Origin: Methanothrix sp.
GTDB lineage: Archaea > Halobacteriota > Methanosarcinia > Methanotrichales > Methanotrichaceae
Length of the DNA: 37,418 nt
Direction of reading: 5' to 3'
Assembly: GCF_026419855.1 (NCBI RefSeq)
Contig: NZ_JAOAKP010000013.1
Coordinates: forward strand, 1 to 37,418
Below are positions 17,534 through 22,914 of the stretch, piece by piece; the stretch's first letter is position 1, and each line of letters begins with the position of its first letter. The notes beneath the pieces were generated by a model. The model was not told the DNA's origin and searched no databases. It worked only from the letters and a program-made list of their open reading frames with translations. A program made the translations under genes and the position numbers.

Positions 17534-19318
17534 ATGATACAGAGATGGATCGTGATCGCAGGAGAGGAGGCAGGGCCGGTCTCAAACAAGATGGGCGGCA
17601 TATGGAATGTGATAGATGCTGAGGCCAGGACTCTCGCAAAGCTGATCAGCAGCGGCGAGATAGAGAACGACATCCGGATCCTCGTCGCCGGCCCATACTT
17701 CCCCACAGCTGGAGCAGACTGGAACCGGGGAAAGATGCGTATTACGGATATATCGGGCCTCGAGCCGCTGAGCATGGGCAGCGAGATCGAAACCGCCCTG
17801 GAGAGGCTCGAATCCCTCGGAATCAAATCAGTAACAGGACAGACGGTGTATCATGATGTTCCGGTCGGCTACATACTATTCGATACGCACTACTACGACA
17901 GCTGCATAGTTCGCAGGGACGCCAGGGAGATGACGCTCACGAACGCGATAAAGGAGGAGGCCTGGAGGCTTGTGGGGCTGGACTCGCTGAAATACGAGCG
18001 CCTGAGCAACGCACCCGAGTACAATCACTACCTCTGCCTCTCATATGCGATCTCGGAGCTTGTGCGTGTGCTGAAGTCAATGGCCGAGGAGCCCGCGGAG
18101 AAATACGCTGACAAGGCGGTTTCAGAGTTCGCGCGCTCTGTGCTTCCGAAGATAAGAATATCTCTCCACTGCCACGAGTTCGGTGTCTTCTACGCGCTTG
18201 CGCGTCTGAAGGCTCTCGGTCAGCCCGTTCGCACGATGGCGACGCTCCACGCCACGGTCCCTGGAAGGGCAGCAGGACACAGATCTTTGGAGATGATAGC
18301 CAGGAACGATAAACGCTGGCCTCCAAATACCCCTGTATCGATGGCTGCACTGGAGGGCCTGGCAAGGTATGCTGATATAGTGACCTTCGTCGGCGACTCT
18401 ACAATGAAAGAGGCCATGCTCTTCCACGATCTCAAGGGCATCGTGATAAGAAACGGGATAGAGGTGGAGCAGGACCATATAGACTGGGAGAAGAAGACCC
18501 GGTGCAGAGCCAGGATACAGAAGTTCATTTCAGAGACGCTCTACAACCTCTACGGCGGGGAAAAGATCGATCCTGAGAACATAATCCCGGTATTCACAAT
18601 ATCGAGGATAGAGATAGAGAATAAGGGATATCCACAGCTTCTTGACGCACTGGTCCTTCAGGATCACCTGCTCAAACACAGAGCTATGAAGCAGAGATTT
18701 GCCGAGAAGATCAGGGTAGCATGCTTCCTCATAGCGGCGCATGGCCCGAAGCAGAAGGACAGGCTCCCGCAGGGCTTCCCCATAAACCTGACGCCCGAGA
18801 TTCTTGTATGGGAGGAGAACAGGCTCTACAAGATGATACAGGAGAAGGGGCTGGAGCCATGGAGGCTCGTATCAGGAAACCGCATAGTATCCGCGATTCT
18901 CTACCCGCAATGGGTTGGGCCAGATGACGGAGGGCTGAACATGCGGGCAGACGAGATCATGGCAGGCTGCGTTGCGGGCATCTTCCCCTCACAGTACGAG
19001 CCCTTCCTTCTCACGGGACTTGAGGCAGGCAAGGAGGGGACGCCGAGCATAGTCAGCAGAGCCTGCGGCTTCAGCGATGCTCTGAAGAAGATAAAGAGGC
19101 TCACAACCGGCATGGGAGGGGTTGTTGTGGTCGACAACATAGAGCAGACTTACAATGAGACCGTGCTCGACTACGCCCTCGCGCTCGATTACTTCACCTG
19201 GAGCCATGTGGCAGATCAGATCGAGTACAGGCTCCTATGCGAGGAGTCGTTTGCGCTTGCAAAGTACATGGACTGGAGGGAGCCTGTCATGGAGTATTAC
19301 AGAAACCTGGTGGTGTGA
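17534..19318 (+). CDS. GT3-family glycogen synthase
   Basis: A 594-residue GT-B glycosyltransferase resembling eukaryotic-type (GT3) glycogen synthase, which extends alpha-1,4-glucan from a nucleotide-glucose donor. The N-terminal NKMGGIWNVI (18-27) corresponds to the donor/acceptor loop of the family. SLHCHEFG and TLHATVPGR lie in the N-terminal lobe. The C-terminal lobe carries FPSQYEPFLLTGLEAGKEGTPS with Glu489 in the catalytic EPF motif. Length is typical for archaeal members. It follows the KaiC-like gene by 8 bases and its stop shares a base with the next start (TGATG). Methanothrix and relatives store glycogen, so the function fits. Confidence 0.9.
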   Translation: MIQRWIVIAGEEAGPVSNKMGGIWNVIDAEARTLAKLISSGEIENDIRILVAGPYFPTAGADWNRGKMRITDISGLEPLSMGSEIETALERLESLGIKSVTGQTVYHDVPVGYILFDTHYYDSCIVRRDAREMTLTNAIKEEAWRLVGLDSLKYERLSNAPEYNHYLCLSYAISELVRVLKSMAEEPAEKYADKAVSEFARSVLPKIRISLHCHEFGVFYALARLKALGQPVRTMATLHATVPGRAAGHRSLEMIARNDKRWPPNTPVSMAALEGLARYADIVTFVGDSTMKEAMLFHDLKGIVIRNGIEVEQDHIDWEKKTRCRARIQKFISETLYNLYGGEKIDPENIIPVFTISRIEIENKGYPQLLDALVLQDHLLKHRAMKQRFAEKIRVACFLIAAHGPKQKDRLPQGFPINLTPEILVWEENRLYKMIQEKGLEPWRLVSGNRIVSAILYPQWVGPDDGGLNMRADEIMAGCVAGIFPSQYEPFLLTGLEAGKEGTPSIVSRACGFSDALKKIKRLTTGMGGVVVVDNIEQTYNETVLDYALALDYFTWSHVADQIEYRLLCEESFALAKYMDWREPVMEYYRNLVV

Positions 19319-20535
19319 TGAATATAGCGTATCTGAGCACAGAGTACCCTCCGCTAGTCTACGGCGGTCTCGGTGTTTATGTGGATTCGATATCTAGAGA
19401 GATCGCCTCGATGGGGCATAAGGTCTCTGTGTTCACGATGGGCAGACCTGATCTGAAGAGAAAGGAGACGAAGCGGGGCGTTACGGCGTTCAGGGATATT
19501 CCGCTTCCGATGAGCGATGCGCTCGAGATATTCTATTCAAAAGAGACCCTCTCCTGGGGCTCTGGCCTGGATTTCCTGAACAATCTCCTTAGCTACAACC
19601 AGCTGGCTGCAGCCCGTGTGAGGGACTCGGGTCCTTTTGATCTCTGTGTTGCGCACGACTGGCTCGCGCTGCCCGCAGGGATGGCTTTGCGTCAGAGCAT
19701 GCCAATGATATACCACGTCCACTGCACCGAGGTCGGGCGCTCCGAGCACCCCAACCAGCAGCTTGTATCGCTGGAGGTGAAGGGCACCAGGCTCGCGGAT
19801 CTCGTGCTGACAGTCTCGAAGGCGATGAAGGGGGAGCTCGAGGGGCTCGGCGTGCCGGCTGATAAGATAAGAGTATGTTACCACGGCGTGGACACAAGGA
19901 TCTTCGATCCATCTGCTGTGAGGCCGGAGAGGCTCGGAATGCTGAGGGAGAGTTACGGCCTGAAGGAATCTGATACAGTCCTCTTATTTCTCGGAAGGCT
20001 CGAGCCTGTCAAGGGCGTTTCCCAGCTGCTCAGCGCTCTTCCTATCATCCGCAGAAAACATCCGGATGTCAGGCTCCTCGTGGTGGGAAACGGATCCCTG
20101 AGAGATCATGTGAGATCCGAAGCTGAGCGGCTTGGCGGTGTTCTGCTCGTTGATCGCTATCTTTCCCCTCAGGAGAAAGCATATCATTATGCGCTCGCTG
20201 ACCTCTGCATATTTCCCAGCATCTATGAGCCGTTCGGGATAGTGGCGCTCGAGGCCGCATCGATGGAGCGCGCCTGTGTCGTCGGAGCCAGTGGCGTCAG
20301 CGGTCTGAGAGAGATAGTCATGAAGCCTGAGACGGATAAGCCAACAGGCGTGCATGTGAACGCTCGCGACCCGAACGATATCGCATGGGGTGTAAATCTA
20401 GCTCTCGAAGATCCGGCTCGCCTCAGGGAGTGGGGGAGGAACGCCAGGGAGCGTGTCCTGGAGATGTTCACATGGCGAAAGGCTGCTGAGAACACATTGA
20501 AGATCTACGAGGAGGTTATCGCATACCGGAGCTGA
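19318..20535 (+). CDS. GT4-type glycosyltransferase (glycogen/starch synthase-like)
   Basis: A 405-residue GT-B retaining glycosyltransferase. The N-terminus, MNIAYLSTEYPPLVYGGLGV, resembles the glycine-rich donor loop of starch/glycogen synthases. The C-lobe has FLGRLEPVKGV and the EX7E pair Glu304/Glu312 in YEPFGIVALEA. The open frame extends upstream to 19237 inside the glycogen synthase gene; the ATG at 19318 is chosen because it starts the conserved domain and overlaps the previous stop as TGATG, a common coupled arrangement. Its substrate is unknown; neighbours suggest an alpha-glucan or glucose-containing acceptor. Confidence 0.87.
   Translation: MNIAYLSTEYPPLVYGGLGVYVDSISREIASMGHKVSVFTMGRPDLKRKETKRGVTAFRDIPLPMSDALEIFYSKETLSWGSGLDFLNNLLSYNQLAAARVRDSGPFDLCVAHDWLALPAGMALRQSMPMIYHVHCTEVGRSEHPNQQLVSLEVKGTRLADLVLTVSKAMKGELEGLGVPADKIRVCYHGVDTRIFDPSAVRPERLGMLRESYGLKESDTVLLFLGRLEPVKGVSQLLSALPIIRRKHPDVRLLVVGNGSLRDHVRSEAERLGGVLLVDRYLSPQEKAYHYALADLCIFPSIYEPFGIVALEAASMERACVVGASGVSGLREIVMKPETDKPTGVHVNARDPNDIAWGVNLALEDPARLREWGRNARERVLEMFTWRKAAENTLKIYEEVIAYRS
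20511..20525 (+). promoter_or_regulatory. Strong Shine-Dalgarno before a non-canonical ATA start
   Basis: AGGAGGTTATC-type sequence (GGAGG at 20511-20515) lies within the end of the GT4 gene. The next in-frame codon of the GalT-like gene at optimal distance (seven bases) is ATA at 20523. No ATG, GTG or TTG lies in that frame between the upstream TGA and position 20619. Confidence 0.5.
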
Positions 20536-21485
20536 GGCGACATTATTTCCTTGAGGAGTACTGCGTCATAGCGAAGGAGCGGGCCAAAAGGCCAACAGAT
20601 TTCATCCGGGCGAGGGAGATGCGCACATCGAAGGAATGTCCTTTCTGCCCCGGAAACGAGGAGATGACGCCCAGAGCTGTGGCCGTATACAGAGACGATG
20701 GTGTGTTTGAAGATGGCGAGACGCGGATCAGGGGCTGGTGGGCAAGATGCATCCCGAACATGTACCCTGCGATGGTTCAGAGCCCGGTTGCGCCAACCCC
20801 AGAGTGGATGGCTATGCCTGCCAGGGGAGGACACGAGGTCATAATCGAATCGCCGGATCATGAGAGCAGTCCGGCCGCCTTTAATAACGAGACGGCGATC
20901 AGAATGATCAGCGTCTATGCTGACAGATACCGGTATCACATCGAGCATGGATCATCGTATGTATCCATATTCAAGAACTGGGGTCGTGAGGCCGGTGCGT
21001 CCCTGAGCCACACGCACACACAGCTGATAGCGCTTCCTCTGGTCCCGCCGCTTCTGATGCGAGAGATATCCTCGATATCGTCTATGCCTGCATGTCCTTA
21101 CTGCATGATCGCTGAGCGGGAGTCGGGTTCTGAGAGGATCATATTCAGAGAAGGGGAGTGGGTTTGCATAGCGCCTTTTTACTCACAGACACCCTATGAG
21201 ATGTGGATCCTGCCGTTCAAGCACATCAGCAATCTTATTGAGATCAACGGATCGATGCTCGCGGGACTTGGCAGAGCACTGAGGGATGCCCTCCACCGGC
21301 TTTCTGCACTTCTGAATGATCCTCCGTACAACTACATGCTGTTTCAAATGAGCTCAAACTACCATTTGAACATCAGGATTCAGCCTGCCATAACCAGGAT
21401 CGCAGGCTTCGAGAAGAATACAGGCATCCACATAAACCCAGTTCCTCCTGAGCAGGCAGCCTCGGAGCTCAGGTCAATCTCATGA
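20523..21485 (+). CDS. galT: GalT-family nucleotidyltransferase (galactose-1-phosphate uridylyltransferase-like)
   Basis: A HIT-superfamily enzyme that exchanges hexose-1-phosphate and nucleotide-sugar. Visible motifs are CPFCPGNE (zinc CxxC), the active-site region SHTHTQL (HxHxQ) and a second CPYC. The first ATG (20619) would begin just before CPFC and discard a conserved GalT N-terminus. That part (LRRHYFLEEY, then VIAKERAKRPTDF) is encoded in the same frame from 20532. No standard start codon exists upstream, so I place the start at ATA 20523, seven bases after GGAGG, giving 320 residues and a 13-base overlap with the GT4 gene. If 20619 is used the protein has 288 residues. Context suggests it supplies or recycles nucleotide-glucose for glycogen synthesis; ADP-glucose phosphorylase activity is an alternative. 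Confidence 0.85.
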   Translation: MPELRRHYFLEEYCVIAKERAKRPTDFIRAREMRTSKECPFCPGNEEMTPRAVAVYRDDGVFEDGETRIRGWWARCIPNMYPAMVQSPVAPTPEWMAMPARGGHEVIIESPDHESSPAAFNNETAIRMISVYADRYRYHIEHGSSYVSIFKNWGREAGASLSHTHTQLIALPLVPPLLMREISSISSMPACPYCMIAERESGSERIIFREGEWVCIAPFYSQTPYEMWILPFKHISNLIEINGSMLAGLGRALRDALHRLSALLNDPPYNYMLFQMSSNYHLNIRIQPAITRIAGFEKNTGIHINPVPPEQAASELRSIS

Positions 21486-21650: not shown

Positions 21651-21750
21651 TGATGTCTGACCTGACAGACAGAATCAGAACAGAATTTCGAGAGATGTGA
21701 AAGAGTTAAATCACACCAATCCGTTGAGATATACTGTTAAAGGTGAGCTG

Positions 21751-22914
21751 ATGCGTATAGGTATGTTCTCCTGGGAGAGCCTCTACTCGGTGAAGGTCGG
21801 CGGCGTGGCCCCGCATGTCTCTGAGCTGTCCGAGGCTCTCGCCAGGATGGGCCACGAGGTGCATGTCTTCACGCGGCGTGGTGATTTTGATTACTACGAT
21901 AAGATAAATGATGTCCATTACCAGCGTGTGGACCACGACCCCACGGGGGATATAGTTCATCAGATGGACACGATGTGCGATGCGATGGTCGACCGGTTCG
22001 AGTCCGTCCAGAGCATCTTCGGAAGGTTCGATCTGATCCACGGCCATGACTGGCATCCTGTGAATGCGATCGTGCGAATAAAGAAGAGTCATGCCATTCC
22101 GCTGATCTTCACAGTCCACAGCACCGAGTGGGGGAGAAACGGGAACAGCCATCCGCAGAATCCTGTATCCCGAGAGATTTCCCATCGCGAATGGCTCGGA
22201 GGTTACGAGTCTGCAAGGGTGATAGTGACGACAGAGTGCATGAAGAATGAGCTGATGATGCTCTACTCCATACCGGAGCAGAAGATCGAGGTGATCCCCA
22301 ACGGGATAGTGATCGGGAAGCTCAGAAGGGCTCTTGATGCCGGCAGGGTCAAGGAGAGGTACGGCATACACCCGCTCGCGCCTGTGATCCTCTTCTGCGG
22401 CAGGATGTGCTATCAGAAAGGGCCGGATCTTCTGGTCAGAGCGATACCCGATGTGCTCCGGGAGAGGTGGGACGCGAAGTTTGTGTTCGTCGGCGAAGGC
22501 GATATGAAGTGGGAGTGCGAGCGGCTGGCGCGAGAGCTCGGCGTCGAGCATGCGTGCAGATTCCTGGGGTACGTTCCAAGCTCAACAAAAGAGGATCTGA
22601 TGAACGCATGCGACATAATATGCCTGCCCAGCAGGAACGAGCCGTTCGGCGTGGTGGTCCTGGAGGCATGGGACGCCGGAAAGCCTGTGGTCGCCACGGA
22701 GGCAGTCACGATAATAAAAAACTTCGAGGATGGTCTGCTCGCCTACATCCAGCCGGAATCGATCGCATGGTGCATCAAACGCCTGCTCAATAACCCTGAG
22801 GAGATGAAGAGGTTATCTTCACTGGGCCGGGCGAGGCTCGAGCATGACTTCAGCTGGGACAAGATCGCAGAGATGACCGTAAGGGTCTATGAGGATGTGC
22901 TGAGAACAGCCTGA
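21751..22914 (+). CDS. GT4-type glycosyltransferase (starch/glycogen synthase-like)
   Basis: A 387-residue GT-B glycosyltransferase, related to but distinct from the gene at 19318. The N-terminus MRIGMFSWESLYSVKVGGVA carries the glycine-rich donor loop, and DLIHGHDWHPVNA follows in the N-lobe. The C-lobe has FCGRMCYQKGPDLL and the EX7E pair Glu297/Glu305 in NEPFGVVVLEA. The ATG at 21751 is chosen over an upstream in-frame start at 21697 because AGGTGA lies four bases before it and the conserved domain begins there. It follows the glycogen operon after a 265-bp gap and probably acts in the same storage or surface glycan pathway. Donor and acceptor are unknown. Confidence 0.87.
   Translation: MRIGMFSWESLYSVKVGGVAPHVSELSEALARMGHEVHVFTRRGDFDYYDKINDVHYQRVDHDPTGDIVHQMDTMCDAMVDRFESVQSIFGRFDLIHGHDWHPVNAIVRIKKSHAIPLIFTVHSTEWGRNGNSHPQNPVSREISHREWLGGYESARVIVTTECMKNELMMLYSIPEQKIEVIPNGIVIGKLRRALDAGRVKERYGIHPLAPVILFCGRMCYQKGPDLLVRAIPDVLRERWDAKFVFVGEGDMKWECERLARELGVEHACRFLGYVPSSTKEDLMNACDIICLPSRNEPFGVVVLEAWDAGKPVVATEAVTIIKNFEDGLLAYIQPESIAWCIKRLLNNPEEMKRLSSLGRARLEHDFSWDKIAEMTVRVYEDVLRTA

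Follow-up and report, generated by a model that had tools for sequence, protein, structure and literature searches.

The window, the whole stretch of 37,418 nucleotides of Methanothrix sp. DNA that was analysed, carries three genes that overlap in series between positions 17534 and 21485 and encode a glycogen-synthase-like protein, a GT4 glycosyltransferase and a GalT-like protein; another GT4 gene lies at 21697-22914 (Table 1). The first two genes share a single base in a TGATG junction (19316-19320), and a longer open reading frame from 19237 is possible for GT4. The GalT-like gene, when read from the ATA at 20523, overlaps GT4 by 13 nt, the GT4 stop codon beginning 10 bases past the first base of the ATA. 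The initial annotation had stated that the GalT-like frame contains no ATG, GTG or TTG between the upstream in-frame TGA and the ATG at 20619, and that a GGAGG sequence stands before the ATA inside the end of GT4. Both statements were borne out when the sequence was checked, with a spacer of 7 nt between GGAGG and ATA. The motif GGAGGT-N6-ATA occurs once in the window, compared with 0.27 occurrences expected by chance, which alone is not significant; the case for an ATA start therefore rests on comparison with related genomes.

Table 1. Features of the GT4/GalT-like locus (positions in the window) and further genes with candidate non-canonical starts
Feature	Position	Strand	Basis or remark
In-frame TGA upstream of the GalT-like frame	20487-20489	+	Sequence
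Extended Shine-Dalgarno (SD) sequence GAGGAGGT, within the C-terminal codons of GT4	20509..20516	+	GGAGG core 20511-20515
ATA, putative GalT-like start (codon 0)	20523..20525	+	Homologous column in relatives; invariant A at a GT4 wobble site
GalT-like / ADP-glucose-phosphorylase-like gene (320 codons, then TGA at 21483-21485)	20523..21485	+	Pfam; PDB 1z84
CTG, rival start (codon +3), sharing bases with the GT4 stop as CTGA	20532..20534	+	Taken to be a normal Leu codon within the gene
Upstream GT4 glycosyltransferase, likely start ATG 19318, stop TGA 20533-20535	19318..20535	+	Pfam Glycos_transf_1, E 7.9e-32
Glycogen-synthase-like gene, at the head of the overlapping series	17534..19318	+	Pfam Glycogen_syn, E 2.7e-19
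ATG, first canonical in-frame codon (codon +32), judged not to be the start	20619..20621	+	Would drop the conserved HYFLEEYCVIAKERAKRPTDF
CPFC motif, probable zinc site	20637..20648	+	Translation; aligned with CPFC of 1z84
HTHTQ, the GalT-family active-site HxHxQ motif	21009..21023	+	Translation; aligned with HSHSQ of 1z84
ChsH2-like Zn-ribbon/OB gene	L181, G000:C114:35924-36328 (L178-L184)	minus	ACG 7 nt after GAGG
LolC/E-like ABC permease	L145:9754-10932, G005:C1:999754-1000932 (L209-L212)		CTG at the start column
ThiI	L143:18076-19239, G005:C1:968076-969239 (L149-L153)	minus	CTG candidates

The predicted protein is a GalT or GalT-like nucleotidylyltransferase, as indicated by the HxHxQ motif and by Pfam matches above cut-off to GalP_UDP_transf, whose domain spans position 20619, and to DUF4921. 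The stricter NCBIfam GalT equivalogs score below their cut-offs (TIGR00209, 54.9 bits versus 102.1; NF008724, 82.5 versus 448), so that any true GalT activity of this protein is putative. Among proteins of solved structure, the best match is the Arabidopsis GalT-like protein 1z84 (E 9.7e-45), which we take to be an ADP-glucose phosphorylase; the alignment starts at residue 2 of the proposed protein and covers PELR...RAKRPTDF, with RAKRPTDF identical in both proteins. A conserved GalT N-terminus ahead of 20619, as claimed by the initial annotation, is supported: positions 20523-20618 are coding, and alignment of the 32 residues in question with GalT homologues, as it had proposed, finds them conserved in every orthologue seen and in the plant structure. 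No available ATG, GTG or TTG would give this N-terminus. Given 1z84 and the glycogen-synthase-like and GT4 neighbours, it is reasonable to guess at a role in ADP-glucose/glycogen metabolism.

For the family comparison, 50 genomes were searched and the start regions were read for the column counts, taking the ATA as codon 0. Comparison of the start region within the genus (six genomes) reveals ATA in this genome and four other species, a closed genome being among the five, and ATC in the sixth; the other five genomes have no canonical in-frame codon before column 0, and three of them lack ATG at the 20619 column. Across the Methanotrichaceae, this homologous column holds a non-ATG codon (ATA, ATC, ATT or ACG) in 22 genomes from nine genera. 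ATC is present in nine genomes of genus g8 and in G001, G006, G009, G010, G022 and G047, ATT in G007 and ACG in G008; all four variants differ from ATG by one base. Column 0 is ATG in 16 Methanotrichaceae genomes, sister genera included. Outside the family it is the start in all 20 orthologues read (ATG in 19 and GTG in one), where it is followed by S/P, E/Q/D, I/L/V, R, K/R and HYFL, and column 0 is hence the ancestral start. Codons 1 and 2 obey the same P/T/S-E rule in non-ATG and ATG species. The GT4 stop lies at +10 in each of the 22 non-ATG genomes; in genomes with ATG at the column and a preceding GT4 gene, it lies at −2 or further upstream.

On the tree, the state of the column (canonical or non-canonical) changes twice, the simplest history being a loss of AUG near the base of the family and a single regain in the clade of 16 rows, while a single non-AUG clade is not rejected by the AU test (p 0.118). 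Under either history, the putative near-cognate start has been passed down through several genera, drifting one base at a time. It appears to be an old feature under selection rather than a sequencing error.

Minimum changes per base were counted for the 22 non-ATG genomes on a tree of GalT from which the first four codons had been left out. Bases at GT4 third-codon positions from −42 to +9 changed two to eight times each (about five on average), with four exceptions, which did not change at all: the SD guanines at −12 and −9, the A that opens codon 0 (base 0) and the G at base 6, with which the Glu codon 2, GAG, begins. Base −1, a GT4 second-codon position, changed five times, and the third base of codon 0 changed three times, with all four letters seen. 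The zero-change pattern implies that codon 0 is where the GalT frame comes under constraint and that the SD is kept beyond the needs of GT4. This genome and G005 both contain the 16S 3' end GGATCACCTCCT, and pairing computed with AUCACCUCCU gives −11.3 kcal/mol for the SD duplex at this locus. The SD is strong in the non-AUG genomes (7-nt spacer, −9.2 to −16.4 kcal/mol), the mean energy being −10.9 kcal/mol in non-AUG versus −6.5 kcal/mol in AUG species (Mann-Whitney p 8e-7, kinship ignored). No conserved sequestering hairpin was found around the SD (RNA-structure z-scores −1.0 to +1.2). It is thus the comparison that fixes the position of the predicted start, the conservation of its SD and codon 0, and its non-AUG identity.

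The initial annotation had left the choice between ATA, CTG and a restart coupled to the GT4 stop. The column, its invariant A, the SD and Glu codon 2 all favor the ATA at 20523, which is very probably the GalT-like start; the CTG is unconserved, and coupling, to which the overlap points, is likely. A start at CTG 20532 would use termination-reinitiation at the 4-nt CTGA overlap with the GT4 stop, leaving the upstream codons to GT4 only. Most g8 genomes and G047 carry ATG at codon +3, forming the classic ATGA overlap at which reinitiation is established in archaea (PMC6728339), and G014 carries TTG; however, G010 has CTA and both G006 and G008 have ATA, and the first base of the codon changes five times on the tree, like a neutral wobble site. 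The SD would sit 16 nt away from such a start, which also provides no reason for keeping either the Glu codon 2, left untranslated, or the A of codon 0. With the outgroups starting at column 0 and carrying an ordinary L/I/V residue at codon +3, we consider initiation at the CTG unlikely.

A programmed −1 frameshift near the end of GT4 would instead yield a GT4-GalT fusion, in which codon 0 is an internal Ile codon. The GalT-like gene is in the −1 frame of GT4, and SD-like elements are able to stimulate frameshifting. Of the rivals, only this one would also account for AUA, AUC and AUU as Ile codons: since these three make up the Ile set, an Ile retained in a frameshifted product would leave a similar pattern, save for the ACG in G008. 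There is, however, no slippery heptamer, the 15-nt stretch available for the shift varies freely between genera, in-frame stops occur at codon −5 in several species, and GalT has its own ATG in 16 genomes of the family and in other families, making a frameshift very unlikely. The ATG at 20619 is the first canonical start and the probable choice of an automatic gene finder, but beginning there would leave the conserved upstream stretch, HYFLEEYCVIAKER included, untranslated; the retention of these residues in all orthologues and the plant structure, the absence of an ATG at the 20619 column from G001, G002 and G003, and the lack of any canonical codon up to +45 in some relatives render it highly improbable. 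Although the window comes as one contig from a draft assembly, the recurrence of ATA at the base that the initial annotation had marked for rechecking, and an intact frame in all six genomes of the genus, argue so strongly against a base-call error or a decayed gene that this explanation can practically be set aside.

We therefore favor initiation at AUA 20523, and consider likely the joint reading of a buried strong SD, an altered ancestral AUG, probable coupling to GT4 and probable low output. How the codon is used we infer from this arrangement. The strong SD (GAGGAGGU) in the last GT4 codons would set the initiator tRNA, most likely Met-tRNAi directed by the SD, on the near-cognate codon 7 nt downstream. 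The ancestral AUG probably became AUC in an ancestor within the Methanotrichaceae, giving rise to AUA, AUU or ACG in its descendants, with the SD retained at high strength as a probable compensation for the weak start codon. Ribosomes ending GT4 probably feed the AUA site by termination-reinitiation, since the GT4 stop lies only 10 nt beyond it, within the 13-nt overlap conserved in position in all 22 genomes. The purpose of the weak codon is probably to hold GalT at a low fixed ratio to GT4. Several points weigh against an AUA start: ATG occurs at codon 0 in none of the 22 genomes where GT4 overlaps, and E. coli initiates from codons of this kind at well below 1% of AUG (AUU at about 0.3%, quoted in PMC10666635). 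An altered aIF1 was considered as an explanation and rejected, which also counts against such a start; its sequence in the genus is ordinary, with the RRYGKEVT loop kept and no obvious defect (two genomes of the genus gave no match).

The closest parallels are mostly bacterial. The AUA and AUU starts of Staphylococcus (infC, ccpN, cvfC1 and citZ) have extended SDs and give about 10-30% of AUG output (PMC13009471). They resemble the GalT-like case in placing a near-cognate AUH codon, conserved between species, at optimal distance from an extended SD and, for ccpN and citZ, in their metabolic context, but they were demonstrated by ribosome profiling and reporters (PMC13009471), whereas the GalT-like start is predicted from sequence comparison, and differs in its archaeal host, its overlapping gene junction and a codon that drifts among AUA, AUC, AUU and ACG. 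The GTC start of Streptomyces sigR is likewise a genus-wide non-canonical start with a conserved strong RBS (AGGAGGTG) and an occasional GTT, but the change is in the first base (G) and the start is repressed through IF3 (PMC5472188); archaea lack bacterial IF3 and use aIF1/aIF1A/aIF2. In E. coli, infC and pcnB (both AUU) share a start of the AUU class that limits output; the product of infC, IF3, controls its own synthesis, a logic not evident for a sugar-nucleotide enzyme. Archaeal termination-reinitiation pairs have an overlapping stop and start and an internal SD for the second gene of the pair (PMC6728339, PMC10666635), as seen here, but those known have ATGA or TGATG, whereas the proposed GalT-like start is non-canonical and precedes the stop by 10 nt. 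Among 61,358 ancestral AUG codons in a study of start-codon switching based on annotated starts, one had changed to AUU and two to CUG (PMC5622118).

A survey of stretches of two genomes of the genus, G005 (540 kb) and G003 (560 kb), covered 226 orthologous genes, 192 of them with a strong coding signal. Most flags were antisense frames or overlaps with upstream genes and were discarded by eye. Four of the 192 genes have no canonical start for their conserved N-terminus: GalT and those for a ChsH2-like protein, a LolC/E-like permease and ThiI, making three further non-canonical starts (ACG, CTG and CTG, respectively) likely. The ChsH2-like gene lies downstream of a thiolase-like gene, and its ACG, 7 nt after GAGG, is shared by the six genus genomes and G007, five of these seven having no nearby canonical alternative; most other family members have ATG at that column. 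The LolC/E-like permease has CTG where G011, G048, G049, G013 and G020 carry TTG. The CTG start of ThiI is the least certain of the four: no canonical start precedes codon 53, a pair of CTG candidates is kept in all six genomes of the genus, and other genera have ATG. Each of the four touches the gene before it, the ChsH2-like one by abutting and the other three by overlapping. A Methanosarcina control gave one flag (transposase-like) among 48 comparable genes, too few for comparison with 4 of 192 to claim enrichment. The surveyed G005 contig also contains at least three near-identical copies at a spacing of 6,885 bp (G005:C1, about 1640522-1655165), the flagged ORFs repeating at that interval.

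In the open-access literature searched, we found no description of an archaeal gene with an AUA or AUC start conserved by descent. Gene callers limited to ATG, GTG and TTG would mis-start or truncate such genes, here with a loss of 32 residues that include RAKRPTDF. Archaeal initiation factors are eukaryote-like, and the occurrence of AUG, AUC, AUA, AUU and ACG in one context offers a natural series for testing how they judge start codons. We tentatively raise the possibility that near-cognate starts (AUA/AUC/AUU, ACG and CUG) are a regular device in thermophilic Methanothrix, and perhaps in the family, for the downstream member of gene pairs that overlap or abut, in which a strong SD and handed-over ribosomes would replace AUG. 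If so, the start codon would set the ratio between the products of the gene pair.
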